DNA of 64,000 bases from Rhodospirillum centenum SW. Lineage in GTDB: Bacteria; Pseudomonadota; Alphaproteobacteria; Azospirillales; Azospirillaceae. Under the pieces are notes generated by a model. The model saw nothing but the letters and a program-made list of their open reading frames with translations, was not told where the DNA came from and ran no database searches. This document shows, piece after piece, positions 3,791 through 18,514 of this stretch; within the stretch, counting starts at the first letter, position 1; each line of letters opens with the position of its first letter. Position numbers and translations under genes: made by a program. The stretch lies in the NCBI RefSeq assembly GCF_000016185.1, contig NC_011420.2:1446501-1510500 (forward strand), read 5' to 3'.

Positions 3791-4008
3791 GTACGCCTCG
3801 CGCAGATCTTCGATGGGTGCCCACAGCCTGGACCCGAGGCTTCCGATTCCGAAAAAACGGAGAAGCGGCAGCCATGCGGGTTCCTGTCGTAAGCCGACGG
3901 ACTGAGGAACGCGGGCTCCACCCGCCCGTTCCCGCGCGCCGTTCCGGCGTTGGGGGAACCCCGGAAGTCCCCGCCGGTTGCCGTCCGATCTAGTCCAAGG
4001 AGAATCCC

Positions 4009-4209
4009 ATGCCCGACCGGCCATCCCGCAACGGCCGGACGACACCCGCCGGTGATCGTCCGACGGTGCCGACGCATCCCTCGCCCCGGCATCCGGGTGA
4101 TGATGCCATGCCCCCCTATTCGCCCGGCGGCGTGCCCGAGCCGGAGACGGACGAGAAGACCAATCCGGAGCACGCGGCCCCGGCCTATCCGCCGCGCCGG
4201 GCGCCCTGA
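4009..4209 (+). CDS. Small proline-rich hypothetical protein
   Basis: This 66-residue frame has a strong AAGGAG ribosome site 6-7 bases before the ATG at 4009. The product is rich in proline, charged and apparently disordered, with no membrane or signal segment. It is divergent from the export lipoprotein gene and ends just before the convergent otsB stop. I do not recognise a family; the ribosome site is the main evidence. Confidence 0.6.
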   Translation: MPDRPSRNGRTTPAGDRPTVPTHPSPRHPGDDAMPPYSPGGVPEPETDEKTNPEHAAPAYPPRRAP

Positions 4210-4214
4210 CGCCC

Positions 4215-5033
4215 CTACCCGCCGAGCCGCGCGGAGAGGGCGTCCAGCAGATGTCCCACGGCAGGAATGTCCGGCAGCATGGCAGCCGCAGCGGTGGGGT
4301 GGCCGTGGTCGCCCACCAGGATGCCCATGCCCCGGTCGCGCAGGGCGGCGAAGGCGTCCTCGTCCGTCAGGTCGTCGCCGACATAGACGGGAAAGGAGGC
4401 GCCCAGGCCCTCCGTTCCGATCAGGTGCAGGACGGCACGGCCCTTGTCCCAGGGCAGGTCCGGGCGCAGTTCGACCAGCTCCTTGCCGCCGGTCCGGCGG
4501 AGCTGCGGCTCGGTGGCGGCGACGCTGCGCACGGCGTCCGCGACCTCTGGCTTGCGGGCTTCCTCCACCAGCCGGGTATGTACCGCGACGGCGTAGCGCT
4601 TGCGCTCCACCAGGGCGCCCGGGATGCCGGCCAGGGCCTGCTCCAGCGCGCTGCCGGCACGTTCCAGGGCCGGCCGGTAGTCTTCTCCCCTGCGGTGCCG
4701 GCCGGAAGGAGCGTCGATGTCGAATCCATGGCTGCCGGCGTAGATCAGGCCCTCGACGCCCACCCTGGTCCGCACGTCATCAAGGTCGCGCCCGCTGACG
4801 ATGGCGACCGGGACCAGCCGTGCCAGCCGACGCAGGCGCCCGCGCATCGCCTCTCCCAGTTCGGCGAGGTCGGGGCGCTGCACGATCTCCGTCAGGGTTC
4901 CGTCGAAGTCCAGGAACAGGGCGGGATCAGATCCGGCCAGGCGGTCTGCCAGGGCGGCGATGCCGGCATCGTCCAGCGGTCCGGCGGAAACCGCCGTCTG
5001 CGGGGCGGATCGCGGAAACGTGGATTGCTGCAT
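4215..5033 (-). CDS. otsB: Trehalose-6-phosphate phosphatase
   Basis: A 272-residue HAD-superfamily enzyme that would dephosphorylate trehalose-6-phosphate to trehalose, an osmoprotectant, in the cytoplasm. Motif I is LDFDGTL near residues 41-47, with both aspartates. Motif II is the SGR region, and motif III/IV is VGDDLTDEDAF near residue 220. The start at 5033 has GAGG upstream and gives a normal family length. No trehalose-6-phosphate synthase (otsA) lies in the window on either side, so its partner must be elsewhere. Confidence 0.93.
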   Translation of the reverse strand: MQQSTFPRSAPQTAVSAGPLDDAGIAALADRLAGSDPALFLDFDGTLTEIVQRPDLAELGEAMRGRLRRLARLVPVAIVSGRDLDDVRTRVGVEGLIYAGSHGFDIDAPSGRHRRGEDYRPALERAGSALEQALAGIPGALVERKRYAVAVHTRLVEEARKPEVADAVRSVAATEPQLRRTGGKELVELRPDLPWDKGRAVLHLIGTEGLGASFPVYVGDDLTDEDAFAALRDRGMGILVGDHGHPTAAAAMLPDIPAVGHLLDALSARLGG

Positions 5034-5092
5034 GGAACACCTCGATCTCGTGCACGGGAGGTCCAGCACCGGCATGCGCCGGGTGCCCGGAG

Positions 5093-5124
5093 GCCCGGGG
5101 GGCTGTGTGCCCGGGGGGCTGTGT
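5093..5124. repeat. Perfect 16-base tandem duplication
   Basis: A 16-base unit beginning GCCCGGGG and ending TGTGT is repeated twice without a gap (5093-5108 and 5109-5124). It lies upstream of otsB. It is probably a slippage product; no function is visible. Confidence 0.8.
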
Positions 5125-5207
5125 CCCCAGGGTGTCGCCCTCACCGCCAAGGCGGCCACCGCTGATGCAGCCGCGCAACACCTGGACCGGAATGCCGCCG
5201 AAACGAC

Positions 5208-5232
5208 AGCGGCCCCGGGAAAGGGGCCGCTT
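5208..5232. repeat. Strong GC hairpin upstream of the small RNA
   Basis: AGCGGCCCC (5208-5216) pairs perfectly with GGGGCCGCT (5223-5231) around a GGGAAA loop. Neither side has a good T-run. It lies just before the putative promoter of the plus-strand small RNA and could be a minus-strand terminator or a structural boundary. Confidence 0.45.
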
Positions 5233-5238
5233 CCGCTC

Positions 5239-5267
5239 TTGCCAACCGTCCCGGCCGGCGCGATATT
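5239..5267 (+). promoter_or_regulatory. Candidate sigma-70 promoter of the small RNA
   Basis: TTGCCA (5239-5244) and GATATT (5262-5267) are 17 bases apart. A start about 7 bases downstream would place the first RNA hairpin right at the 5' end. Matches to the consensus are moderate. Confidence 0.45.
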
Positions 5268-5273
5268 GTGCAT

Positions 5274-5352
5274 CGCAGCATTCGTGCTGCATTGCCCTTT
5301 GTTGGGCGTTTCCTCCCTAGACTCAGGCCGCTCTGTGAGCGGCCCTTTTTTT
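5274..5352 (+). ncRNA. Putative small RNA with exposed anti-Shine-Dalgarno segment
   Basis: About 79 nucleotides with three hairpins and no reading frame. Hairpin 1 is GCAGCA-TTCG-TGCTGC (5275-5290). Hairpin 2 is GCCC-TTTGTT-GGGC (5294-5307). An unpaired GTTTCCTCCCTAGAC stretch follows, then a perfect intrinsic terminator. The CCTCC core can pair with ribosome sites, as in the alphaproteobacterial anti-SD small RNAs (such as alpha-r14 and CcsR types). The segment GCGTTTCCTCCCTAG is identical to one in the second putative small RNA near 15.9 kb, at the same place in the layout. Expression and targets are inferred. Confidence 0.65.
5326..5352 (+). terminator. Rho-independent terminator of the small RNA
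   Basis: GGCCGCTC (5326-5333) and GAGCGGCC (5337-5344) pair perfectly around a TGT loop and are followed by C and seven T residues. This is the clearest intrinsic terminator in the window. It cannot serve a plus-strand protein gene, because none lies upstream. Confidence 0.9.
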
Positions 5353-5420
5353 GCCAGAACGTCGCAGCGACGACAACCCCCCATCCGGGTGGGTTGCGCA
5401 ACAAAAGTCCTAGGCCATCC

Positions 5421-5586
5421 TGTGGACAAGTCTGTGGACGTTTCGTGCGTATCCGGCCCTGTGCACCTTCCGAGACCGGATCCGGTCCCCTGCCGGCATG
5501 GCAGCATGCCTCCGGGAAGGGCAGTACCTGCCGGACCGGAAGGTCCGGCGGCGCGACTCGGACCAGCGTGCCGACGCTGTGGATAG
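5421..5586. other. Cluster of DnaA-box-like nonamers
   Basis: TGTGGACAA (5421-5429), TGTGGACGT (5433-5441) and TGTGGATAG (5578-5586) are close to the DnaA box TGTGGATAA, with one, two and one mismatch. A 7-base-stem hairpin with a GGAA loop lies at 5531-5548. These fill the gap between the small RNA and nagA. There is no AT-rich unwinding region, so this is not an obvious replication origin. Confidence 0.3.
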
Positions 5587-5667
5587 TTCCGGCTGCCGCT
5601 TGCATCCGTGCGCCCGCGGGGCTTTGATCGCCTCCCCCCAGACTGCCGCCCGGACGGGAGACGGCGC

Positions 5668-6813
5668 ATGTACGCCCTTGTCAACGCCACCCTGGAAAGC
5701 CCCGATGGTCCCCTGGCCGGTCATGCCCTCGTGGTGGAGGGCGAGCGCATCGCCGCCCTGCTGCCGGAGCGGGAGCTGCCGGGATCGCTGCGCCGGATCG
5801 ACCTGGGCGGCGGCACCCTGGCGCCGGGCTTCATCGACCTTCAGGTGAACGGTGGCGGCGGCGTACTGCTGAACGACGACCCGTCGCCGGAAGCCTTCGC
5901 CCGCGTGGCCGCGGCGCACCGACGGTCCGGCACCACCGCCCTGCTGCCCACCCTCATCAGCGACCGTCCGCCCGTTCGCGCGGCGGCGGTCGCAGCGCTG
6001 GACGCGGCGCGGGCGATGGGGCATCCCTCGATCCTGGGCCTTCACCTGGAAGGGCCTCACCTGTTCCCCGGCCGGCGTGGCGTGCATCCGGCCGAGGTGC
6101 TGGTGCCGCCGACGGAAGCGGACTTCGCCCTGGTGGAGCGCGCCGCACGGTCGGGCCGGGTGCTCGTGACCGTAGCGCCGGAGATCGTGGGACCGGACGG
6201 CATCCGGCGGTTCCGGGCGGCAGGCGCCATCGTCGCTCTCGGCCACAGCGACTCTTCCCATGCCGATGCCTGCGCCGCCTTCGAGGCGGGAGCCAGCGGG
6301 GTGACGCACCTTTACAACGCCATGAGCCAGCTCGGCAGCCGGGAACCCGGGCTGGTCGGCGCTGCCCTGGACCATGATGACGTCTGGTGCGGCCTGATCG
6401 CGGACGGGCACCATGTCCACTGGGCATCGGTCCGGCTGGCCTGGCGGGTCAAGCGGCACCGGCTGGTGCTGGTGACCGACGCCATGCCCCCGGTGGGGGC
6501 GGAGGCCCCCGGCGACTATCTCCTGGGCGGGGAGCGCATCCGGGTCGAGGGGGGCCGTTGCGTCACGGCGGAAGGCCGGCTCGCCGGCTCCGCGCTCGAC
6601 ATGGCGTCGGCGGTGCGCAACATGGTCCGCCATGTCGGTGTGCCGCTGTCCGAGGCCCTGGCCCTGGCCGCCGCGGCCCCCGCGGACGCCCTCGGCCTGG
6701 GACACCGGATCGGCCGTCTCCGCCCCGGTCTCAGGGCCGATCTCGTCCATCTGGACGGTACGCTCGAAGTCCGCCGGACCTGGGTCGCCGGAAGGGCCGA
6801 TCCACCCCTCTGA
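5668..6813 (+). CDS. nagA: N-acetylglucosamine-6-phosphate deacetylase
   Basis: A 381-residue amidohydrolase-fold enzyme that would remove acetate from GlcNAc-6-phosphate in amino-sugar and cell-wall recycling. Seen motifs: PGFIDLQVNG, the metal-site LHLEGPH, GHSDSSH, THLYNAMS and VTDAM with the catalytic aspartate. The ATG at 5668 has GGGAG 8 bases upstream and matches the normal family start; the frame is open for 20 more codons without support. No nagB, nagK or GntR-type regulator is adjacent, so the gene looks monocistronic. Confidence 0.93.
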   Translation: MYALVNATLESPDGPLAGHALVVEGERIAALLPERELPGSLRRIDLGGGTLAPGFIDLQVNGGGGVLLNDDPSPEAFARVAAAHRRSGTTALLPTLISDRPPVRAAAVAALDAARAMGHPSILGLHLEGPHLFPGRRGVHPAEVLVPPTEADFALVERAARSGRVLVTVAPEIVGPDGIRRFRAAGAIVALGHSDSSHADACAAFEAGASGVTHLYNAMSQLGSREPGLVGAALDHDDVWCGLIADGHHVHWASVRLAWRVKRHRLVLVTDAMPPVGAEAPGDYLLGGERIRVEGGRCVTAEGRLAGSALDMASAVRNMVRHVGVPLSEALALAAAAPADALGLGHRIGRLRPGLRADLVHLDGTLEVRRTWVAGRADPPL

Positions 6814-6986
6814 TACCGCCCCCGGCGGCAGGATCCCCCCCTTCCGGGACTGCCGCCCGTCCGAAGGCGCAGACAGCGGTGTGGCGGCAATCCGGTATCG
6901 TCCATGGGTGCAGCGCAACCTTTCCCCCTCGGGGACCGTTGCCGCCTCTATGACCACGGATGTCCGCGAAAGGACCGGCCGCGACC

Positions 6987-8468
6987 ATGAGAAGCGGATC
7001 ACTGGCTGCCGCCGAGCCCGATGAGACCGGACCGGAGCTTGATGCCGACGCCATCTTCAACGGCCTGCTGCTCGCCCTGATCGGCCGCCGCCGCCTGCTG
7101 ACCCTGGTCGGAGAGACCCCCGGCGACCGGATCGCCCTGCTGGCACGGCTGGCCCGTCATGTCGAGACGGACGGGTCCCTGGTGCTGACGGTCGGCGCCG
7201 GCCCCGGCGTCACGGTCGAGGATCTGATCGAGGTCGCCGGCCGTGCCGTGCTGGACGGCCGCCCCCCGGGCGAGGGACAGTTCGACGCGCTGGTCGATCT
7301 GCTGGAGACGCGGCTGGATCAGGCCGGCACCGGCATCCTGATGGTGGAGGAGGCCGAGCGGCTTCCCCCCGACACGCTCCGGGATCTGGTCGAACTGTCA
7401 GGGTCGATGAGCACGGAGGGCAACTTCCTTCAGATCCTGCTGTCCGGCAGCCCAGAGCTGGAGGGACGGCTGCATCAGGCGGACCTGATGCCGGTTCTGC
7501 GGGCGGTCGGTACGCTCTACCGCATGCCCCCGTCCCGTCCGGACCGCAGCGGTACGGGCATGCCGCCCACCACCCTGCGCCCGTCGCGCCGGCCGGCAAT
7601 GGAGCCGCCGCCCCGGTCAGCAGGCTCCAGGGGCTGGTTCCTGCTCGCCCTGCTGGCCGCGGCCAGTGCCGCCGGAACCTGGTGGCTGGGCGGCGCGGAC
7701 AGGAGCCTGTGGACCGCCCCTGATCGCACGGCCCCGCCATCCATCCAGACGGCAGAGGCCCCGCCCTCCCCGGAAATGCCGGTGAGCGGGCCGCGCCGCG
7801 ACGGAACGGGCGACGACGCCCGCACCGCCGGAACGGCCCCGGTGCCCCCGATGGACGCGCCGGAACCGGCCGGGGAGCCCCCGCCCGCGGAGTCGCGCCC
7901 GGTCACGGATGCCGAAACGGCAGCCCCTCTGCAGCCCCCCTCACCCGAGCCACCGGCCATCGACCTTCCCGTCCGGACGCCGACAGCACCGCCTGCGCCA
8001 GCAGCGGAGACTCAGGAAGAGGCCGCTCGATCCGAGACCTCCCTTGTCGGCCCCCTGCTGGAGCGGGCGCAGGAGCAGATCGCGGCCCGCCACCTCACCA
8101 CACCGCGGGGCGACAACGCCCTGGACACGCTGCGCGCGATCATGGAGGTAGCCCCCGGACATCCCGCCGTCGCGGAGATGCGGCAGCGGATCATCGCCAC
8201 CTACCGGCAATGGGCGCGCCTGTCGGAACAGCGCGGCGACTGGGATCTGGCCCGCATCTATTACCAGCGCGCCCTGCGGGTGGACCCGGCGAACCGGACG
8301 GTGACACAGCTTCTGGACTCGCTCGGCGCCCGCCGGGCCGGCGGTCGCCCCGTCGCGGCGGCGGCAGCAGGGGCGGCGGACGCGCCGGCTGCGTCTCCCC
8401 CCGTCCGTCCCGCCACGGCCGAAAGCCGTCCGGACCCGGACGATCCGCCGCCACCCCGGCTGCGCTGA
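6987..8468 (+). CDS. Membrane-anchored ExeA/GspA-like pseudo-ATPase with TPR-like C-terminus
   Basis: 493 residues. Residues 1-190 resemble the ATPase domain of ExeA/GspA, but the P-loop reads GETPGDRIA, without the GKT/S that binds nucleotide; the Walker B-like part reads ILMVEEAERL. A membrane helix (WFLLALLAAASAAGTWWL) lies near 215-235. A long Pro/Ala linker follows, then a helical C-terminus with one TPR-like unit (GDWDLARIYYQRALRVDP). The layout suggests a cytoplasmic head and a periplasmic TPR domain, as in cell-envelope assembly factors. The ATG at 6987 was chosen because AAAGGA precedes it; 6960 has no ribosome site. Confidence 0.65.
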   Translation: MRSGSLAAAEPDETGPELDADAIFNGLLLALIGRRRLLTLVGETPGDRIALLARLARHVETDGSLVLTVGAGPGVTVEDLIEVAGRAVLDGRPPGEGQFDALVDLLETRLDQAGTGILMVEEAERLPPDTLRDLVELSGSMSTEGNFLQILLSGSPELEGRLHQADLMPVLRAVGTLYRMPPSRPDRSGTGMPPTTLRPSRRPAMEPPPRSAGSRGWFLLALLAAASAAGTWWLGGADRSLWTAPDRTAPPSIQTAEAPPSPEMPVSGPRRDGTGDDARTAGTAPVPPMDAPEPAGEPPPAESRPVTDAETAAPLQPPSPEPPAIDLPVRTPTAPPAPAAETQEEAARSETSLVGPLLERAQEQIAARHLTTPRGDNALDTLRAIMEVAPGHPAVAEMRQRIIATYRQWARLSEQRGDWDLARIYYQRALRVDPANRTVTQLLDSLGARRAGGRPVAAAAAGAADAPAASPPVRPATAESRPDPDDPPPPRLR

Positions 8469-8478
8469 GCCGGAACCG

Positions 8479-9069
8479 TCAGTCCAGGGTCGGTTCCCGC
8501 CGCTCCCGCGGAGCACCGGCAGGCGTGCCGGAAGCGGCCGGGCGGGACGGCGGGCGGGCTTCCGCCTCGATCAGGGCGACCAGCGCCGCCAGGATGTCCA
8601 CCGGCCGCGGCGGGCAGCCGGGGATCATGAGATCGACCGGCACCACCTTCTCCACCCCGCCGACCACGGCGTAGCTGTCGGCGAACGGTCCGCCGTCGAT
8701 GGCGCACTGGCCCAGCGCCACCACCCATTTCGGGTCGGGCGTGGCCTCCCAGGTCTTCAGGAGCGCCTCGCGCATGTTCGTCGTGACCGGGCCGGTGACC
8801 AGCAGCACGTCGGCATGCCGGGGCGAGGCGACGAAGCTGAACCCGAAGCGCTCCAGGTCGTAGACCGGGTTGTTCAGCGCGTGGATCTCCATCTCGCAGG
8901 CATTGCAGGAGCCGGCATCGACCTGCCGGATGGCAAGGCTGCGCCCCAGCCGGCGGCGCGACGCCGTGTCCAGCCGGCGGGCGAGCGCCTCGACGGTGGC
9001 GTCGGCGGGGGCCGGCCCGGCGATGGTGCGGGGCCCCTTCAGCAGGATGCGCGCGATCACGCCGAACAT
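8479..9069 (-). CDS. hyfI: Hydrogenase-4/complex I small-subunit homologue (HyfI/NuoB-like)
   Basis: 196 residues. It carries the four cysteines that hold the cluster next to the active site in NuoB and Ech/Hyf small subunits: C55 and C58 (SCNACEME), C122 (GQCAIDGG) and C152 (PGCPPRP). It would pass electrons to or from the large subunit on the cytoplasmic face. It is the last gene of the operon, 10 bases after hyfG, and converges with the pseudo-ATPase gene. The C-terminus has an extra Ala/Pro/Arg-rich tail of about 30 residues. The ATG at 9069 has GAGAGG upstream. Confidence 0.9.
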   Translation of the reverse strand: MFGVIARILLKGPRTIAGPAPADATVEALARRLDTASRRRLGRSLAIRQVDAGSCNACEMEIHALNNPVYDLERFGFSFVASPRHADVLLVTGPVTTNMREALLKTWEATPDPKWVVALGQCAIDGGPFADSYAVVGGVEKVVPVDLMIPGCPPRPVDILAALVALIEAEARPPSRPAASGTPAGAPRERREPTLD

Positions 9070-9079
9070 GACCGGCCTC

Positions 9080-10606
9080 TCATAGATCGTGGCCCGAATA
9101 GGAGCAGTTGAACGACTTGTTGCAGATCGGGAAGTCCGCGACGATGTTGCCCTCGATCGCGGCCTCCAGCAGCGGCCACTGGAACCAGGACGGATCGCGC
9201 AGATGCGCCCGCTCGATCCGCCCGCCCGCCCCCAGGCGCAGCCAGCACAGCACGTCGCCGCGGAAGCTCTCCACCAGCGCCATGCCCTCCGCCGGCTGCT
9301 CCGGCGCCGGCAGCAGGGCGCGGGCCGGGCCGGGCTCCAGCCGCTTCAGGATCTGGCGGATCAGGCGGATGCTCTGTTCCACCTCCGCGAAGCGGATCAG
9401 GATGCGGGCGTTGACGTCGCCGTGCGGCAGCGTCGGCACGTCGAACTCCAGGTCCGGATAGGGCGCGTAGCCGGGGCTGCGGCGGGCATCGGCGGCGCGG
9501 GAAGAGGCACGGCCGACAGGCCCGCCGGCACCGAAGCGGTGCGCCAGCGCGGGCGACACGATCCCCGTCCCGACCGTCCGGTCCAGCAACGAGGAGGTGC
9601 CGTCGTAGAGCGCCGCGAGTTGCCGCACCACGCGCGGCACCGCGTCCAGCATGTCGTAGAGTGCGGCCCGGCCCTCCTCCTTCAGGTCCACGGCGATGCC
9701 GCCGGGCACGATCCGGTCCATCATGAAGCGGTGGCCGAAGCAGGTGTCCGCCGTCCGCATCACGCGCTCGCGCAGGGTCGATCCTTCCGCCAGCATCAGC
9801 GCGAAGGCGGCGTCGTTGCAGATGGCGCCGATGTCGTTCAGGTGGTTCGCCAGCCGCTCCAGCTCCGCCATCAGGGCGCGCAGCAGCCGGGCCCGCGGCG
9901 GCACCTCCAGCCCCAGCGCCGCCTCCACCGCCAGCGCGAAGGCCAGGGCATACGCAACCGTGCTGTCGCCGGAGATGCGGCCGGCCAGCCGGGCCGCCTC
10001 CTCCGGCAGCCGGCCGCGCATCAGCCGTTCCGTCCCCTTGTGGACATAGCCCAGCCGCTCCTCCAGCCGCACCACCGTCTCTCCCTGGCAGGAGAAGCGG
10101 AAATGCCCGGGTTCGATGATGCCGGCATGCACCGGCCCGACGGGGATCTGGTGCAGGCCGGGACCTTCGGCCGGCAGGAAGTCGTAGGTGCGCACCGCCG
10201 GCGCCGGACCGGCGGGCGCCGTCCCCAGCGGCTGGCGCTGGCGCCAGCGGTCATGGTCCAGCCAGGGGCGGGTGTCGTCCAACCCCTCCGGGACCAGCCC
10301 GGTCAGGTCCCGGACCGCCCGCTCCAGCCGCTTCGCCGACGGCCGGACGGCGGAGAGCGAGGGGAACCGCCCTTCCGGACAGGCCAGGGAGAGGACGGCG
10401 ATGTCGCCCTCCGCCTCGTCGCGCAGGGCGGCGTGGACGCAGGCGGCCTCCGCCCAGAGGCCCAGAAGGCTCCAGCCGCCATAGGGCAGCCGGTCGATCA
10501 GGGCGGTCCAGCCCTCCCGGTCCGTCTCGAACCGGGGCCAGGGCCGGTGCCGCTCCACACGGCGCCCGATGCCGTCCAGGAACCCGAGGAGCCCGTTGTC
10601 GCCCAT
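9080..10606 (-). CDS. hyfG: Hydrogenase-4 large-subunit homologue (HyfG/NuoCD-like) lacking nickel ligands
   Basis: 508 residues: an N-terminal NuoC-like part (to about 170), then a NuoD/HycE-like part. True NiFe hydrogenases have R-x-C-G-x-C before the HyfG core; here the matching place reads RISGDS, with serines for both cysteines. The C-terminus ends NKSFNCSYSGHDL, where the canonical CxxC pair would be; only a C-x5-C is present. A NiFe centre is therefore unlikely. This is typical of Ehr-type complexes (known from Geobacter and others). The ATG at 10606 has GGGG about 8 bases upstream; an ATG at 10612 overlaps the hyfF stop (TGATG) and is equally possible. Confidence 0.88.
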   Translation of the reverse strand: MGDNGLLGFLDGIGRRVERHRPWPRFETDREGWTALIDRLPYGGWSLLGLWAEAACVHAALRDEAEGDIAVLSLACPEGRFPSLSAVRPSAKRLERAVRDLTGLVPEGLDDTRPWLDHDRWRQRQPLGTAPAGPAPAVRTYDFLPAEGPGLHQIPVGPVHAGIIEPGHFRFSCQGETVVRLEERLGYVHKGTERLMRGRLPEEAARLAGRISGDSTVAYALAFALAVEAALGLEVPPRARLLRALMAELERLANHLNDIGAICNDAAFALMLAEGSTLRERVMRTADTCFGHRFMMDRIVPGGIAVDLKEEGRAALYDMLDAVPRVVRQLAALYDGTSSLLDRTVGTGIVSPALAHRFGAGGPVGRASSRAADARRSPGYAPYPDLEFDVPTLPHGDVNARILIRFAEVEQSIRLIRQILKRLEPGPARALLPAPEQPAEGMALVESFRGDVLCWLRLGAGGRIERAHLRDPSWFQWPLLEAAIEGNIVADFPICNKSFNCSYSGHDL

Positions 10607-10611
10607 GGCCA

Positions 10612-12087
10612 TCACCCCAGCAGCGTCGCAACGGTCTGGAACCACGCCACCAGCGGCGCCGGCAGCCAGAGCCCGGCGACCAGCACCAGCGCCAGATGCA
10701 GGTAGAGCGGCACGAGGGCAGCGCCGGCCCGCCCCGGCGGCGCCGTCGGCTCCCCGAAGCAGAGTTCGTGCAGGCGCAGCATCAGGGCGCCGAACCCGAG
10801 CAGCAGACCCACCACGAAGACGGCCGCCAGCCACGGCGCCCGGGCGAAGCTGGTGGTGGCGATCAGGAACTCGCTCATGAACACGCCGAAGGGCGGCAGC
10901 CCGGCGATCGCCACCACGCCCAGCAGCAGACCCCATCCCAGCGCCGGATGGCTGGCGGTCAGGCCCCGGATGTCGGCCAGCTTCTGCGTCCCCGTCGCCT
11001 GGGTGACATGGCCCACGGCGAAGAAGATCGCCGACTTGGTCAGGCTGTGCAGGGTCATGTGCAGCAGCCCGGCGAAGTTGGCGATCGGGCCGCCCATGCC
11101 GAAGGCGAAGGTGATGATGCCCATGTGCTCGATCGAGCTGTAGGCGAAGAAACGCTTGATGTCGCGCCGCCGGTACAGCATCAGCGCCGCCAGCAGCAGC
11201 GTGCCCAGCCCCATCACGATCATGAGCTGTCCGGGCGCCAGCGCCTCCCCGTTCGCGGCCAGCAGCATCTTGAAGCGCAGCACGGCGTAGAGCGCCACGT
11301 TCAGCAGCAGCCCCGACAGCACGGCGGAGATCGGCGTCGGCCCTTCCGCATGCGCATCGGGCAGCCAGGCGTGCAGCGGCACCAGCCCCACCTTGGTGCC
11401 GTAACCGATCAGCAGGAAGACGAAGGCGAGGTCCAGCAGGTCCGGGTCGATCCGCGCCGCCGCCGGCAGCAGGGCCGACCAGGACATGGCAGCGTCGCCC
11501 TCCCCCAGCACCGGCTGCGCCGCCATGAACAGCAGGATGGTGCCGAACAGGGCCAGCGCGATCCCGACGCCGCAGAGGATGAAGTACTTCCAGGCCGCCT
11601 CGATGGCGGCATGGGTGCGGTAGAGGCTGACCATCAGCACCGTCGTCAGCGTCGCCCCCTCCACCGCCACCCAGAGAACGCCCAGATTGTTCGCCAGCAG
11701 CGCCAGCAGCATGGTGAACATGAACGCCTGATACATGGCGTGGTAGAAGCGCAGGTGCAGCGGCGACAGGCGCCCGTCCTCCAGCTCGTGCCGGATGTAG
11801 CCGGCACTGAACAGGCTCGTGGTGAAGCCGACGAAGGCCGTCAGCAGCACCAGATAGACATTGAAATCGTCCACCAGCAGCAGCGGCGTCGTCTCCGGCC
11901 GGTGAAGGACGAGCGCCACGGCAGCCGCCAGCGTCAGGCCCGATCCGGCGACGTTGATCCGCGCCGCGGCCCTGTAGCCGGGCACGGCCAGCAGGACGGC
12001 CGCGAACAGGACCGGCAGGGCCAGCACCAGAGGGGCCAGGATTTCGGCCCCCGGCATTCCGGGGATCAGGGTCGGGACCTGCATCAC
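10612..12087 (-). CDS. hyfF: Antiporter-like membrane subunit HyfF
   Basis: A 491-residue, highly hydrophobic proton-conducting antiporter-like protein of the NuoL/M/N and Mrp family, with about 14 membrane segments. Family signatures include the charged pair region around the glutamate in WVAVEGATL and lysine/histidine residues in GYGTKVGLVPLHAWLPDAH and LHSLTKSAIFF. In such complexes it couples redox chemistry to ion movement. It starts inside the end of hyfE (ATGA overlap). Confidence 0.92.
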   Translation of the reverse strand: MMQVPTLIPGMPGAEILAPLVLALPVLFAAVLLAVPGYRAAARINVAGSGLTLAAAVALVLHRPETTPLLLVDDFNVYLVLLTAFVGFTTSLFSAGYIRHELEDGRLSPLHLRFYHAMYQAFMFTMLLALLANNLGVLWVAVEGATLTTVLMVSLYRTHAAIEAAWKYFILCGVGIALALFGTILLFMAAQPVLGEGDAAMSWSALLPAAARIDPDLLDLAFVFLLIGYGTKVGLVPLHAWLPDAHAEGPTPISAVLSGLLLNVALYAVLRFKMLLAANGEALAPGQLMIVMGLGTLLLAALMLYRRRDIKRFFAYSSIEHMGIITFAFGMGGPIANFAGLLHMTLHSLTKSAIFFAVGHVTQATGTQKLADIRGLTASHPALGWGLLLGVVAIAGLPPFGVFMSEFLIATTSFARAPWLAAVFVVGLLLGFGALMLRLHELCFGEPTAPPGRAGAALVPLYLHLALVLVAGLWLPAPLVAWFQTVATLLG

Positions 12088-12752
12088 TCCCTCCGCCCCT
12101 CGCCCCGGAAGCTCTCCAGGTAATGGATATCCAGACTGTCGAACCGCTCGCGGATCTGGAAGAAGAAGATGCCAAAGATGATGAAGGCGACCATCACGGC
12201 AAAGGCGACCAGCATCTCCACCACCAGCGGCATCCCCCTGACGCCGATCGCGGCCAGGATCAGGCCGTTCTCAAGGCTCATGAAGCCGATCACCTGACCG
12301 ATGGCGTTGCGCCGGGTGATCATCATCAGCAGGCCCAGCAGCACGACCGACAGCGCCAGCGCCAGCCCCTCGCGCGTCAGCGCGGAGGCTTCGGCCGTCA
12401 ACGGCAGGACGAGAAGGAGCGCCAGCGTCACGAGGGAGACGCCGATCGCCATGGTCGGCCCCACGCCCATGGCCTGCTGCACCGTGCGGTGGATGCCCAG
12501 CCGCTCGATGATGCGCAGCAGCGCCAGCGGGATGATCAGGGCCTTGAACAGCAGGGCGATCACGGCGGTGACGTAGAGGTGCGGGTTGTCCTGGAAGAAG
12601 CCCTGCCACGCCGCGGCCGCGGCCAGGAAGACGGACTGGGTGGCGAAGGCGCTGATGAGCGCCGTCAGCCGGCGCTGGTAGAGCAGCGCGAAGCTCATCA
12701 GCAGGACCGAAGCCCCGAGCAGATGCGCCATGTCGTAGCCGATCTCACCCAT
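12084..12752 (-). CDS. hyfE: Hydrogenase-4 membrane subunit HyfE
   Basis: 222 residues with about six membrane helices, including a NuoK-like region (VIGFMSLENGLILAAIG) that holds the conserved glutamate. In hydrogenase-4-like complexes it links the antiporter modules. It lies 8 bases after hyfC with GAGGG before the ATG and overlaps hyfF by four bases, so translation is probably coupled. Confidence 0.9.
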   Translation of the reverse strand: MGEIGYDMAHLLGASVLLMSFALLYQRRLTALISAFATQSVFLAAAAAWQGFFQDNPHLYVTAVIALLFKALIIPLALLRIIERLGIHRTVQQAMGVGPTMAIGVSLVTLALLLVLPLTAEASALTREGLALALSVVLLGLLMMITRRNAIGQVIGFMSLENGLILAAIGVRGMPLVVEMLVAFAVMVAFIIFGIFFFQIRERFDSLDIHYLESFRGEGRRE

Positions 12753-12760
12753 CGGACCCT

Positions 12761-13732
12761 CTACAGCGCCGTGGACACGAACAGGAAGATCGCCGCCAGC
12801 AGTCCCAGCAGCAGCGCCCCGCCCAGAAACTCGCCGACGCGGAAGACCCGCATCTTCGCCACCGTCGTCTCGAACAGGGCCAGCGCCACGGCCGCCGCCA
12901 GCAGCTTGCCCAGGAAGGAGCCCAGGCCGATGGCCCAGGCGGTCGGACCGTCGCCCGGCTGGGCGATGCCCCAGGGCACGAAGACGCAGAGGATCAGCGC
13001 CATGAACAGCAGCAGGCGCAGCATCCCCGCCGCCTCCATCAGCGCCAGATGGCGGCCGGAATATTCCAGCACCATGGCCTCATGGACCATGGTCAGCTCC
13101 AGATGCGTGGCGGGATTGTCCACCGGGATGCGCCCGGCCTCCGCGATGGCGACCATGATCAGGCTGATCAGCCCCAGCGCCAGGGAGACGCGCAGCCCCA
13201 CCCCCTGCCCCAGCGTGCCGTCTACGATGGCGGCCAGCGAGGTGGTCTGGAGCAGGATCGCCAGGGTGAAGATCACGGCCAGCATGGCGGGTTCCGCCAG
13301 GGCGGAGATCATCGCCTCCCGCGAGGCGCCGAGACCGCCGAAGGCGGTGCCGATGTCCATGGCGGCCAGCCCGGTGAAGAAGCGCGCCGTCGTCAGCAGC
13401 GCCACCAGCGCGATCAGGTCCGCCACCGGCGCCAGCGCCAGCGCCGTCGTGAAGGTCGGCACCAGTCCGGCTGCCAGCCAGAGCATGGTGAAGACGATGT
13501 AGGGCGTGGCGCGGAACAGCCAGGAGGCGTTCTCCGCCACCACGGCCTCCTTCCGGGTCAGGCGCAGCAGGGCGCGATAGGGTTGCAGCACAGGCGGCCC
13601 CCGCCGCCCCTGCAACCGAGCCTTGATCCCCCGCACCACGCCGGTCAAGAGCGGCGCGAGCGCCAGAACCACCAGCATCTGCACGCACTGGAACAGAACG
13701 GCGAGTGCAGCCTCCGAGACCTGCCCGCTCAT
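12761..13732 (-). CDS. hyfC: Membrane anchor subunit HyfC (NuoH-like)
   Basis: 323 residues, about eight membrane helices. Family marks are RLQGRRGPPVLQPY near the N-terminus and AEAGRIPVDNPATHLELTMVHE, the acidic loop that touches the quinone-site region in complex I. It would dock the hydrophilic HyfG-HyfI pair to the membrane. The start at 13732 overlaps the hyfB stop by four bases (ATGA). The long frame upstream is a shadow of hyfB. Confidence 0.92.
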   Translation of the reverse strand: MSGQVSEAALAVLFQCVQMLVVLALAPLLTGVVRGIKARLQGRRGPPVLQPYRALLRLTRKEAVVAENASWLFRATPYIVFTMLWLAAGLVPTFTTALALAPVADLIALVALLTTARFFTGLAAMDIGTAFGGLGASREAMISALAEPAMLAVIFTLAILLQTTSLAAIVDGTLGQGVGLRVSLALGLISLIMVAIAEAGRIPVDNPATHLELTMVHEAMVLEYSGRHLALMEAAGMLRLLLFMALILCVFVPWGIAQPGDGPTAWAIGLGSFLGKLLAAAVALALFETTVAKMRVFRVGEFLGGALLLGLLAAIFLFVSTAL

Positions 13733-15774
13733 TTCACCACCGCCACGACGGTCAGCAGGAAGACCAGCGCCCCGAACATCAGGGTCAGGTAATGCCGGAT
13801 GGTCAGGAACTGCATCCCGTTGACCTTGTCCGCCAGCCAGCCGACGGCACGGCAGAGCGGGTCGATCAGCCAGGTCCAGGCCGGGTCGGAGCTGCGGATC
13901 TCCAGCCGGGCCGGCCGCATCTCCCCCGGCTCGGGCATGTCCACCCGCTCGCGCGCGGCGAAGACGCCGGCGGCGAAGACCCGGCGCAGCGGCTGGGAGA
14001 AGCTGTCGCCGCTGTACTGGGCCACGGGACCGACGTCGGGATGGCCGCAGCCCCAAGGCTCGCCCCGGCGCACCGCGGCGTCGGAAGTGCGGACGATCAG
14101 CAGCCGCAGCAGCACCGTGAGCGCCGCGGTCAGGCCCAGGACGAACAGGCCACTGTAGGAATTGCCGCCGAAGCCGTCGCCCGGGGCGGCGGGGGCCAGC
14201 CACATCCAGGCCAGCGTCCCGGCACGGCTGTCCATCGGGGTGCCGACCATACCGGCGGCGGCATCACCGAACAGGGCCAGGACGCTGCCCGGCAGCACCC
14301 CCACCAGCAGGCAGAGGGCGGCCGGCAGCAGCATCGCCAGCAGCATGGCGGGACCGACCTCCCGCGCCTGGGCCGCGGCGGGCGACCGCGGGCGGCCCAG
14401 GAAGACGATGCCGTAGAAGCGCAGGAAGCAGGCGGCGGTGAGCGCCGCAGCCAGGGCCAGGGCGACGCCGACGACCATGGTCGCCACCTTCATCTCCCAC
14501 AGCCCGAGCTGCGGTCCGCTGAGCACCGCCTGGAACAGCAGCCATTCCGAGGCGAAGCCGTTCAGCGGCGGCAGGGCGGAAATGGCGGCAGCCCCGACCA
14601 GCACCAGGGGCGCCGTCCGCGGCAGCCGGTGGATCAGACCGCCCAGCCGGTTCAGCCCGCCCTGCCCCGTCGCCGTCAGCACGGCGCCGGCACCGTAGAA
14701 CAGCAGCGTCTTGTAGAGGCTGTGGTTCAGCGCGTGCAGCAGGGCCGCGGAGAAGGCGATGGCCGCCACGCCCTGCTGCCCGTCCGCCTTGAACACCAGG
14801 GCGAGCCCCAGCCCGACGGAGATGACGCCGATGTTCTCCACCGTGGAATAGGCCAGCAGGCGCTTCATCTCGTCCTGCATCAGGGCGTAGAGGATGCCCA
14901 GCACCGCCGTCGCCGACCCCAGCGCCAGCAGCACCCCGCCCCACCACCAGTCCGGCGTGCCCGCCAGATCGAACAGCACCCGCACCAGGGCATAGAGCGC
15001 GACCTTGGTCATCACCCCGCTCATCAGGGCGGAGACGTGACTCGGCGCCGCCGGATGCGCCAGCGGCAGCCAGACATGCAGCGGTGCCAGCCCCGCCTTG
15101 GACCCCGCCCCGAGCACCACCAGCATCACCGCCAGCCCGGCGGCGAGGGGGTCATGGGGAGCGGCGCGGATGTCGTCGAAGCCGTAGCCACCGGCGCTGC
15201 CGGCCAGCACGCCGAAGCAGAGCAGCAGCACCATGGTGCCGAAGCTCGCCATGATCAGATAGATGCGTCCCGCCTCGCGGTTGCCGGCCTCGCGGTGGTT
15301 CGCCAGCACCAGCAGCCAGGAGGTCAGCGACATGAACTCCCAGCCGACCAGGAACAGGAAGGCGTCGCTGGCCAGAAGCACCAGGTTCATCCCCGCCAGA
15401 AACAGCGGGAAGGCCGGCAGCACGCGGCCCGGTTCCAGCCCGTGGCCGCTGCCGGCCTGGGCACGGCCATAGCCCCAGCCGAACAGGCTGGCCGTGACGC
15501 CGGCAAGGTTCACCATCAGCAGGAAGACGGCCGAGAGCGCATCCAGCACCAGTTCGGAGCGCAGCCAGGGCAGGCCCACGGGCACCGGCATCCGCCAGAC
15601 GCCGCCCTGTCCCAGCAGATGCACCAGCGCGGCCAGCACCAGCACAGCGCAGCAGGCCGCGGTGCCGCCATAGACGATCAGCGCCGTGCGGGGCGAGCGG
15701 GGACGGACGGCGCCGATGCCCCCCAGCGTCAGCAGGAGGAGCAGGGATGGGAGAACGAACTGCAAGGCGGGCAC
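13729..15774 (-). CDS. hyfB: Antiporter-like membrane subunit HyfB
   Basis: About 681 residues, an antiporter-like subunit of the NuoL/HyfB type. It has VGWEFMSLTSWLLV (conserved glutamate), GAGSKAGLAPLHVWLPLAHP (lysine and histidine) and LNHSLYKTLLF, then a C-terminal extension with a last membrane helix, as in HyfB. It is the first gene of the operon. The start is uncertain: GTG at 15774, or TTG at 15765 with GAGG about 9 bases upstream. The frame stays open to 15924, but that part overlaps a small RNA terminator on the same strand, so the longer form is unlikely. Confidence 0.88.
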   Translation of the reverse strand: MPALQFVLPSLLLLLTLGGIGAVRPRSPRTALIVYGGTAACCAVLVLAALVHLLGQGGVWRMPVPVGLPWLRSELVLDALSAVFLLMVNLAGVTASLFGWGYGRAQAGSGHGLEPGRVLPAFPLFLAGMNLVLLASDAFLFLVGWEFMSLTSWLLVLANHREAGNREAGRIYLIMASFGTMVLLLCFGVLAGSAGGYGFDDIRAAPHDPLAAGLAVMLVVLGAGSKAGLAPLHVWLPLAHPAAPSHVSALMSGVMTKVALYALVRVLFDLAGTPDWWWGGVLLALGSATAVLGILYALMQDEMKRLLAYSTVENIGVISVGLGLALVFKADGQQGVAAIAFSAALLHALNHSLYKTLLFYGAGAVLTATGQGGLNRLGGLIHRLPRTAPLVLVGAAAISALPPLNGFASEWLLFQAVLSGPQLGLWEMKVATMVVGVALALAAALTAACFLRFYGIVFLGRPRSPAAAQAREVGPAMLLAMLLPAALCLLVGVLPGSVLALFGDAAAGMVGTPMDSRAGTLAWMWLAPAAPGDGFGGNSYSGLFVLGLTAALTVLLRLLIVRTSDAAVRRGEPWGCGHPDVGPVAQYSGDSFSQPLRRVFAAGVFAARERVDMPEPGEMRPARLEIRSSDPAWTWLIDPLCRAVGWLADKVNGMQFLTIRHYLTLMFGALVFLLTVVAVVK

Positions 15775-15877
15775 CCTCGACGAGGATGCCCCTAGTTTAG
15801 GGATCGCCCCCCGGTCCTGCGCAAGCCCGAACTGCACGACGCTCCGTCCCGGCAGAAAGCGGCGGGCCCAGGGTCGG

Positions 15878-15912
15878 AAAAAGAAAGCCCCGGAACCAGG
15901 AGGTGCCGGGGC
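15878..15912 (-). terminator. Rho-independent terminator of the second small RNA
   Basis: Read on the minus strand, GCCCCGG (15912-15906) pairs with CCGGGGC (15893-15887), with three more pairs inside after a mismatch and a TCCT loop. TTTCTTTTT follows (15886-15878). It lies inside the 5' extension of the hyfB frame, which argues for the shorter HyfB. Confidence 0.85.
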
Positions 15913-15955
15913 CAGGAGTTTCAACTAGGGAGGAAACGCAACCACAGTTGCCAGA
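15878..15955 (-). ncRNA. Second putative small RNA with anti-Shine-Dalgarno motifs
   Basis: About 78 nucleotides on the minus strand. Hairpin GCAAC-TGTG-GTTGC (15951-15938) is followed by GTTTCCTCCCTAGTTGA, then by a terminator hairpin. The 15-base GCGTTTCCTCCCTAG (15939-15925) is identical to that of the RNA near 5.3 kb, while the preceding stem differs in sequence but keeps its pairing. The terminator loop itself carries ACCTCCT, a second anti-SD motif. I find no clear promoter; the 5' end is set by the hairpin. It sits about 100 bases upstream of hyfB. Confidence 0.65.
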
Positions 15956-16123
15956 CCTTGATAGCCTGATCCCGTTAAGCGCCCGTTAATGGCGATGATG
16001 GGGCGACCTTAACAATCCTTGATACTACTTAATCGTTGAACCCCAGGGCGGCGCATCGCCTCTGGCAGACGAGGCCGGCTTGCGCTATGCAGCCCCCCGG
16101 TTCCTATTTCCGGCTAATGATCC

Positions 16124-18514
16124 ATGCTCAGCATCGCCCAGCGCATCGCCCAGGAGCTTGCCGTCCGCCCGCAGCAGGTGGAAGCGGCGGTCGCCCTTCT
16201 GGACGAAGGCTCCACGGTTCCCTTCGTCGCCCGCTACCGCAAGGAGGCCACGGGCGGCCTGGACGACACCCAGCTCCGTACCCTTGAGGAGCGGCTGCGC
16301 TACCTGCGCGAACTGGAGGAGCGCCGCACCGCGATCCTCCAGTCGATCACCGAGCAGGGCAAACTGACCCCGGAACTGGAGAAGGAGATCACCGAGGCGG
16401 ACACCAAGACCCGACTCGAAGACCTCTACCTCCCCTACCGGCCGAAGCGGCGGACCAAGGCCATGATCGCCCGCGAGGCGGGGCTGGAGCCGCTGGCCGA
16501 CCTGCTGCTGGGCGACCCGTCGCGCCAGCCGGAGGCCGAAGCCGCCGCCTTCGTGGATGCCGAGAAGGGCGTCGCCGACGTGAAGGCCGCGCTGGACGGC
16601 GCCCGCGCCATCCTGGTGGAACGCATGGGCGAGAATGCCGAACTGGTCGGCAGCCTGCGCACCTACTGCTACGAGCACGGCCGCGTCGTCTCCAGGGTGG
16701 TGGAGGAGAAGCGCGAGGAAGGCGCCAAGTTCAGCGACTATTTCGACTTCGGCGAGGCGCTGAAGCAGGTCCCCTCGCACCGCGCGCTCGCGCTGTTCCG
16801 CGGCCGCGCCGCCGGCGTGCTGGACCTGAAGATGGAGGTCGGCGAGGAGCCGCCGCCGGGCACGCCGCATGTCTGCGAGACGATGATCGCCGCCCGCTAC
16901 GCCATCGCCGACCGCGGCCGCGCGGCCGACCGCTGGCTGCTGGACACCTGCCGCTGGGCCTGGCGCACCAAGATCGCCCTGCACCTGGAGCTGGACCTGA
17001 TGGGCGTCATCCGCGACCGCGCGGAGGACGAGGCGATCAGCGTCTTCGGCCTGAACCTGAAGGACCTGCTGCTGGCCCCGCCGGCCGGCCAGCGCGCCAC
17101 GCTGGGCCTTGACCCCGGCATCCGCACCGGCGTCAAGGTCGCCGTGGTGGACGCCACCGGGAAGCTGGTGGAGACGACGACCATCTACCCGCACGAGCCG
17201 CGCCGCGACTGGGACGGCTCCATCGCCGTGCTGGCCGCGCTCTGCCTGCGCCACGGGGTCGAGCTGATCGCCATCGGCAACGGCACGGCCAGCCGTGAGA
17301 CGGACAGGCTGGCCGCCGACATGATGAAGCGGCACCCTGACCTGAAGGTCACCAAGGTGATGGTGTCGGAGGCCGGCGCCTCGGTCTACTCCGCCTCGGA
17401 GACGGCGGCGCTGGAGTTCCCCGGCCTGGATGTCAGCCTGCGCGGCGCCGTCTCCATCGCCCGCCGGCTCCAGGACCCGCTGGCCGAGCTGGTGAAGATC
17501 GACCCGAAGTCGATCGGCGTCGGCCAGTACCAGCACGATGTCAGCCCGGCCAAGCTGGCCCGCACCCTGGACGCCGTGGTCGAGGACTGCGTGAACGGCG
17601 TCGGCGTCGATCTCAACACCGCCTCGGTGCCGCTGCTGGCCCGCGTCTCCGGCCTGTCGGAGAGCGTGGCGAAGAACGTCGTGGAGTTCCGCAACAGCAA
17701 CGGCGCCTTCCGCCTGCGCCGGCAGCTTCTGGAGGTCTCGCGCCTCGGCCCCAAGGCGTTCGAGCAGGCGGCCGGCTTCCTGCGCATCCGCGACGGCGAC
17801 AACCCGCTGGACGGCAGTGCGGTCCACCCGGAAGCCTATCCGGTGGTGGAGCGCATCCTGGCCCGTACCGGCCGCGACCTGAAGCAGATCATCGGCGACG
17901 TCGCCTTCCTGCGCTCGCTGGATCCGGCCGACTTCACGGACGAGCGGTTCGGCGTCCCCACCGTCACGGACATCCTGCGCGAGCTGGAGAAGCCGGGCCG
18001 TGACCCGCGGCCGGAGTTCAAGACGGCCGCCTTCAAGGACGGCGTGGAAGACCTGAAGGACCTTCAGCCCGGCATGGTGCTGGAAGGCGTGGTGACCAAC
18101 GTCACCAACTTCGGCGCCTTCGTCGATGTCGGCGTCCACCAGGACGGGCTGGTCCACATCTCCCAGCTCTCCCACACCTTCGTGAAGGACCCGCGCGCCG
18201 TGGTGAAGGCGGGCGACATCGTGAAGGTGAAGGTGCTTGAGGTGGACCTGAAGCGCCGCCGCGTCGCCCTCACCATGAAGCTGGACGAGCAGCCCGCCCC
18301 GCGCCGGGCCGAGCCGCAGGCGCCGCGGGCCGAACGGCAGCCGGGCGCCTCCCGCCGGCCGGACGCGCCGCGCTCCGCGGACAACCGGCCCCGCCCCGCC
18401 GCGGCGCGGGAGGAGCGTCCCGCCAAGGCAGCCAAGGCGCCGGCGGCGCAGCCGCAGGTGGGCGCTCTGGGGGCCGCACTGGCCGAGGCGATGGCGCGCG
18501 CGAAGAAGGGCTGA
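16124..18514 (+). CDS. tex: RNA-binding transcription accessory protein Tex
   Basis: 796 residues, the usual length plus a tail. Tex-type helical N-terminus, a YqgF/RNase H-like domain ([17 protein letters not shown]), helix-hairpin-helix motifs ([14 protein letters not shown] and following) and an S1 RNA-binding domain ([18 protein letters not shown]) near 650-720. The last 75 residues are Arg/Pro/Ala-rich and probably disordered. Tex proteins act on transcription and RNA turnover in the cytoplasm. It stands alone and is divergent from the small RNA and hyf operon. The ribosome site at 16124 is weak. Confidence 0.95.

Follow-up and report, generated by a model that had tools for sequence, protein, structure and literature searches.

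The alphaR8 small RNAs (sRNAs), known from all Alphaproteobacteria except Rickettsiales, have two defining features, a single-stranded UUUCCUCCCU lying 3' of a weak hairpin and a Rho-independent terminator; an FGase gene is their neighbour in most species, an adjacency typical of species with one alphaR8 copy (PMC12559287). Caulobacter crescentus has four copies, SisA to SisD, with one common 10-mer and separate promoters, of which SisA uses the 10-mer to repress mRNAs and is itself titrated by the sponge CrfA (PMC12559287). MmgR, the alphaR8 RNA of Sinorhizobium meliloti, limits polyhydroxybutyrate (PHB), and its gene is reported to be under NtrC and AniA (PMC7143759). This study concerns two putative sRNAs, RNA1 and RNA2, encoded within 64,000 nucleotides of Rhodospirillum centenum SW (NC_011420.2, positions 1,446,501 to 1,510,500; hereafter the window, to which coordinates refer unless a genome position is indicated). 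Judged from sequence, it is fairly likely that both are alphaR8-type sRNAs with an anti-Shine-Dalgarno (anti-SD) seed and that RNA2 is a CtrA-activated sibling providing a post-transcriptional arm on carbon metabolism.

Both RNAs consist of a hairpin, then the identical 15-mer GCGTTTCCTCCCTAG, then an intrinsic terminator (Table 1). The 15-mer has no further exact copy in the window, and its 12-base core, TTTCCTCCCTAG, occurs at these two sites only in the whole genome of 4,355,543 bases. A first-pass annotation of this DNA had proposed such a pair of loci, and the exact match, the folds and the T-runs confirm it. Folding energies were -33.2 kcal/mol for RNA1 (z -4.43) and -30.5 kcal/mol for RNA2 (z -3.90, taken from the inferred start at 15952), and the loops in the minimum-free-energy (MFE) structures are UUCG, UUUGUU and UGU in RNA1 and UGUG, CCUA and UCCU in RNA2. 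The end previously given for RNA2, 15878, was retained, while its start probably lies a few bases inside the proposed 15955, near 15952, as placed from a -10-like TATCAA; TATATC or TATACC hexamers resembling this element were noted by eye in many orthologues. Recurrence of the shared sequence in like contexts of related genomes had also been anticipated, and the 13-mer GTTTCCTCCCTAG was indeed found in 21 of 59 genomes, the own genome included, with 29 of the 30 loci examined judged by eye to have the hairpin-seed-terminator order (the exception being L033).

Against the Rfam model RF00519 (suhB/MmgR, alphaR8), RNA1 scored 55.7 bits, above the gathering score of 41, whereas RNA2 reached 29.2 bits, for which reason it is named here alphaR8-type, a divergent variant. 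The four best matches in the genome were RNA1, a copy at genome position 3630419 (55.6 bits), another at 1275797 (38.3 bits) and RNA2, with the fifth at 21.8 bits (E 0.065); RNA1 and RNA2 thus look like two of four alphaR8-type siblings, a number that matches SisA-D. Like MmgR, both carry an internal UUUCCUCCCU 3' of a weak hairpin and end in a Rho-independent terminator, as the alphaR8 definition asks, and RNA1 also stands above the Rfam cut-off; in the MFE structure of RNA2 part of the 10-mer lies in a weak stem-loop, and "single-stranded" describes RNA2 less well. No FGase gene was seen among the window neighbours of RNA1 or RNA2. Such a gene (PF05013) is located near the 3630419 copy, with one GNAT gene between, which makes RNA1 and RNA2 extra siblings, that is, paralogues. 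Multiple copies are general in the family Azospirillaceae, where RF00519 matched 81 of 81 genomes (80 above the cut-off) with from at least 2 to at least 18 matches per genome at E <=0.005, these counts being lower bounds owing to stricter filters.

What sets RNA2 apart, and was overlooked in the earlier reading, is a group of tex-linked orthologues together with a conserved CtrA-type box. The orthologues were found in two ways, with the divergent neighbour tex as synteny anchor and by a pattern search on RNA2, whose matches were inspected in full for the first 30 loci and in part for later ones. RNA2-like copies adjoin tex in six genera (g1, g7, g9, g11, g12 and g13). Their 5' hairpin varies with pairing kept, from GCAAC/GTTGC in L103 to GAACGCAC/GTGCGTTT in L109, a locus located through tex and not through RNA sequence. 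A scripted stem search, which halts at short loops or mismatches, was run on 20 copies; L065 alone gave a 3-pair stem, though GCAAC and GTTGC are present there. The tex-linked sRNA is duplicated in tandem at four loci (L052, L062, L067 and L068), the copies being separated by 170-203 bases, with GTTAAC upstream of each.

The full CtrA motif is TTAA-N7-TTAA; full motifs of Caulobacter have their 5' base close to -35, a position that agrees with activation (PMC4287350). Upstream of RNA2 stands such a box, TTAACGGGCGCTTAA, with its 5' base at -37 if the RNA starts at 15952; a consensus scan detected no sigma-70-like promoter for RNA2, and RNA1 has a sigma-70-like promoter without the box. All 36 scored tex-linked copies (RNA2 included, tandem pairs being represented by their first copy) have the box with at most one mismatch, three of them exactly, and the spacing is nearly fixed: the best box precedes the seed by 53-59 bases in all but one copy (35 of 36). 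In L058 the best site listed is further upstream, but TTTA-N7-TTAA at the usual place matches equally. Other spacers (2 to 13) reach at most 12 of 36 at one mismatch or fewer. Outside this count are L055, L069 and L071, loci with no tex start, of which L069 and L071 carry the box and L055, of another type, does not, and also L108, a 37th copy recognised late, its seed being altered (TTTCCCTCCC), in which sRNA and box are both there.

No N7 site at 0-1 mismatch was present in a comparison set of 27 other alphaR8 copies, which contained RNA1 but, for its coding context, not L033, and in shuffled upstream regions of 11 loci such a site arose in 0.2 to 6.6 percent, depending on the locus. Throughout the genome there are 15 exact TTAA-N7-TTAA sites, compared with 6 for the reversed pattern. 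One of the 14 besides that of RNA2 adjoins flgI, with a response-regulator gene on its far side, two adjoin chemotaxis-receptor genes (three genes in all), and a further two have dnaK and a PAS histidine-kinase gene, respectively, on their downstream side. CtrA-controlled non-coding RNAs (ncRNAs) of Caulobacter also have CtrA motifs upstream, six with both motif and chromatin immunoprecipitation enrichment (PMC4287350). The tags of SisB-D (R0133, R0143 and R0157) do not appear in the available text of a bioinformatic survey of CtrA-box-bearing ncRNAs of the cell cycle (PMC5988900), and CtrA is not mentioned in the main text of the SisA-D paper, which describes the upstream regions as having no common motif (PMC12559287); the box of RNA2 is instead conserved among its orthologues, and differs likewise from the NtrC and AniA control of mmgR.

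Predicted targets were sought with the pattern GGGAGGAA-N3-10-ATG, which occurs at 32 places in the own genome and at 3 for the reversed control. From 30 of the 32 places, 23 distinct open reading frames (ORFs) of at least 100 aa were obtained, 8 with acyl-CoA enzyme domains (ECH, 3HCDH, acyl-CoA dehydrogenase, AMP-binding and MaoC, a list drawn up after seeing the set). Two other Shine-Dalgarno (SD) patterns, present at 10 and 91 places and sampled at 40 loci, gave 0 of 22 ORFs with such domains, an excess with a one-sided Fisher p of 0.0023, or 0.0072 when restricted to ORFs with a Pfam match (8/19 vs 0/13). Since strong SDs make the search non-specific, this excess stays a lead. In another genome, G012, 5 of 25 predicted-target ORFs were uptake proteins.

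Several points weigh against regarding RNA2 as a CtrA-activated sibling acting on carbon metabolism, besides its sub-threshold RF00519 score. The boxes are not independent, 28 of the 36 coming from one lineage, genus g11, and at spacer 2 there are nine exact matches, all from TTAACCTTAA of g11, against three for N7. An N7 site at two mismatches is present in seven of the 27 comparison copies of alphaR8. Just 3 of the 14 other exact boxes are tied to motility; beyond these and the boxes by dnaK and the histidine-kinase gene, the neighbours that were scanned had no Pfam match or other functions. The box, at the same place, is also often weaker in the 11 RNA2-like copies without tex in the stretch (one exact, two with one mismatch, seven with two and one with four); the four-mismatch copy, L084, has another hairpin type. 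The acyl-CoA excess was not replicated in G012 (2 of 25 ORFs, obtained with the first 30 places out of 66; p 0.28 vs the same controls).

The strongest alternative is that RNA1 and RNA2 are two plain alphaR8 paralogues, with the box serving tex or another AT-rich regulator and RNA2 having no CtrA link. The box sits between divergent genes, so that tex could also be under it, and L109 and L113 of genus g7 carry an exact TTAA-N7-TTAA nearer tex, about 113 bases from it. The eight tex upstream regions judged sRNA-free by seed searches and by eye (L106, L107, L111, L112 and L114-L117, L117 having just 415 bases) speak otherwise: their best sites have 2-4 mismatches, and none has 0-1. Distances from tex to the box range from 130 to 186 in nine loci where the sRNA box is the best site, so the spacing of the box is fixed to the seed and not to tex, and the box is assigned to the sRNA. 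Furthermore L083, a 3-kb stretch without tex, still has an exact box at -56. This alternative is considered unlikely. In L113 a longer coding-like stretch was observed between the tex-proximal box and the sRNA.

Box and seed were also sought together outside this group. A class-wide scan for TTNA-N7-TTAA with the seed gave matches in 13 of 385 genomes, among which the own genome and loci L240 and L241 (family f93; TTCA-N7-TTAA with seed and terminator) alone were judged sRNA-like by terminator and position; the rest look like chance matches, mostly in AT-rich DNA. A scan of named genomes gave at least 118 stretches, and three among the matches listed were judged sRNA-like, each with exact box, seed and terminator: L139 from an Acetobacteraceae metagenome-assembled genome (MAG), L211 from a Candidatus Puniceispirillum MAG and L225 from a Sphingorhabdus MAG. 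No tex match was found in L139, L240 or L241. The combination outside Azospirillaceae may reflect separate gains or chance, and as alphaR8 copies are very many in the class, a few such matches may well be accidental.

The first-pass annotation correctly grouped the two RNAs in a single anti-SD sRNA kind, but the kind is alphaR8/MmgR and not, as it had suggested, that of alpha-r14 (NfeR1, cuckoo) or CcsR. CU-rich anti-SD motifs are common to all of these RNAs, but the architecture differs: alpha-r14 has three hairpins with an anti-SD motif unpaired in every loop (PMC7143759), a description that sets it apart from both window RNAs, neither of which has such loops and each of which carries a single UUUCCUCCCU 3' of a hairpin. 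No CcsR model matched at threshold, the sole listed match being CcsR1 at 16.6 bits (cut-off 65.3) on the opposite strand upstream of RNA1, with none listed for RNA2, and membership in either family is very improbable. That a chance 15-mer lies beside unrelated terminators, with no sRNAs at all, deserves hardly any credence, for while a shuffled window contains a mean of 1.38 matches at up to three mismatches, the 15-mer is exact at both sites, RNA1 matches RF00519 and orthologues exist in several genera, a conservation that counts strongly against chance.

Table 1. Features of the two sRNA loci, in window coordinates.
Feature	Coordinates	Strand	Basis or remark
RNA1 promoter, sigma-70-like, TTGCCA-17-GATATT	5239..5267	+	consensus scan, 9/12 matches; shuffle mean 0.1
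RNA1, putative alphaR8/MmgR (suhB) sRNA, three hairpins	5274..5352	+	RF00519 match at 5287-5359; fold z
Shared 15-mer with anti-SD core CCUCCC, RNA1	5306..5320	+	exact match
RNA1 intrinsic terminator	5326..5352	+	8-pair stem and T-run (ends at 5352)
RNA2, putative divergent alphaR8-type sRNA, tex-linked	15878..15952	-	RF00519 below cut-off; orthologues beside tex; fold
RNA2 intrinsic terminator	15878..15913	-	fold; scan detected 5-pair part; T-run ends at 15878
Shared 15-mer with anti-SD core, RNA2	15925..15939	-	exact match
RNA2 5' hairpin GCAAC-TGTG-GTTGC	15938..15951	-	fold; both sides changed, pairing kept in L109 and L113
-10-like TATCAA of RNA2	15958..15963	-	position
Full CtrA-type box TTAA-N7-TTAA upstream of RNA2	15975..15989	-	sole such site in window, 0 expected
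tex, divergent neighbour of RNA2, synteny anchor	16124..18514	+	Pfam Tex_N, Tex_YqgF, Tex_central_region, S1

Certain structural details of RNA2 were set aside. The further ACCTCCT formerly placed in its terminator loop is present (15904-15898), but not wholly in the loop, since in the MFE structure ACC pairs with GGU and UCCU alone is looped; L104, L105 and L085, orthologues aligned with RNA2, do not have it, so that it lacks comparative support, and a functional role for it was rejected on both grounds. The RNA2 fold displays the seed in a GUUUC/GAAAC loop, which is not claimed as a feature because folds differ among orthologues. Orthologue folds, which included untranscribed 5' bases, were not used as evidence; the mean unpaired probability of the core was 0.77 in the 36 tex-linked copies and 0.79 in 25 others, with just 0.18 in L104 and 0.20 in L105.

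RNA1 is flanked by otsB-like and nagA-like genes and RNA2 by tex and an antiporter-like gene. The otsB-like trehalose phosphatase gene adjoins RNA1 (4215-5690), while an otsA-like trehalose-phosphate synthase gene (GT20) adjoins the FGase-linked copy (L101, 2217-3932), so that each half of trehalose synthesis has an alphaR8 copy close by. Downstream of RNA2, 8479-15795 on the minus strand holds NADH-quinone oxidoreductase / Mrp antiporter-type genes, perhaps a hydrogenase-4-like operon; a relative of the first of these genes is found beside tex in many, not all, orthologous loci. The copy at genome positions 1275797-1275872 on the minus strand (L102, about 3998-4073; 38.3 bits) has the seed GATTCCTCCCTAA and lies between permease and methyladenine glycosylase genes. 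At genome positions 1324661-1324730 (L008, about 1501-1570) a terminator-ended element with CAACCTCCTTATGAGG after a strong hairpin (RF00519 21.1 bits) is possibly a separate anti-SD sRNA.

Under the reading preferred here, RNA1 and RNA2 would be transcribed as terminator-ended alphaR8-type sRNAs of about 75-80 nt, whose UUUCCUCCCU would pair with GGGAGGAAA-like SD sites and repress translation, presumably with Hfq. The four siblings would have targets in common and promoters of their own. RNA1 would be expressed from an ordinary sigma-70-like promoter, and the RNA2 promoter would have a full CtrA box in place of the -35 region, so that phosphorylated CtrA would bind there and switch RNA2 on. 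A rise in phosphorylated CtrA would then raise RNA2 and repress mRNAs with GGGAGGAAA-like start sites, and the CtrA programme, which in R. centenum covers motility and suppression of encystment, would gain its post-transcriptional arm, directed at carbon metabolism. Cysts have a high PHB content. In R. centenum, deletion of the CtrA homologue RC1_1752 reportedly enhances cyst formation and a phospho-mimic suppresses it (PMC4340629). A bolder proposal, put forward tentatively and judged rather less probable than not, is a developmental alphaR8 branch in Azospirillaceae: CtrA would directly activate the tex-linked sibling, this sibling would repress catabolic (acyl-CoA and uptake) mRNAs, and a two-component cell-fate regulator would thereby set carbon use and the formation of PHB-rich cysts via an sRNA.

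The RNAs themselves are of a known kind; what is new is the tex-anchored subgroup and its CtrA-type box. In the open-access papers searched, no alphaR8 subgroup was found with such a box for its fixed promoter, on which footing priority is not firm. With the same seed as its siblings and a CtrA box of its own, RNA2 offers a candidate answer to why genomes carry several alphaR8 copies: the paralogues would put a single target set under several regulators, here in R. centenum, a model for cyst formation.

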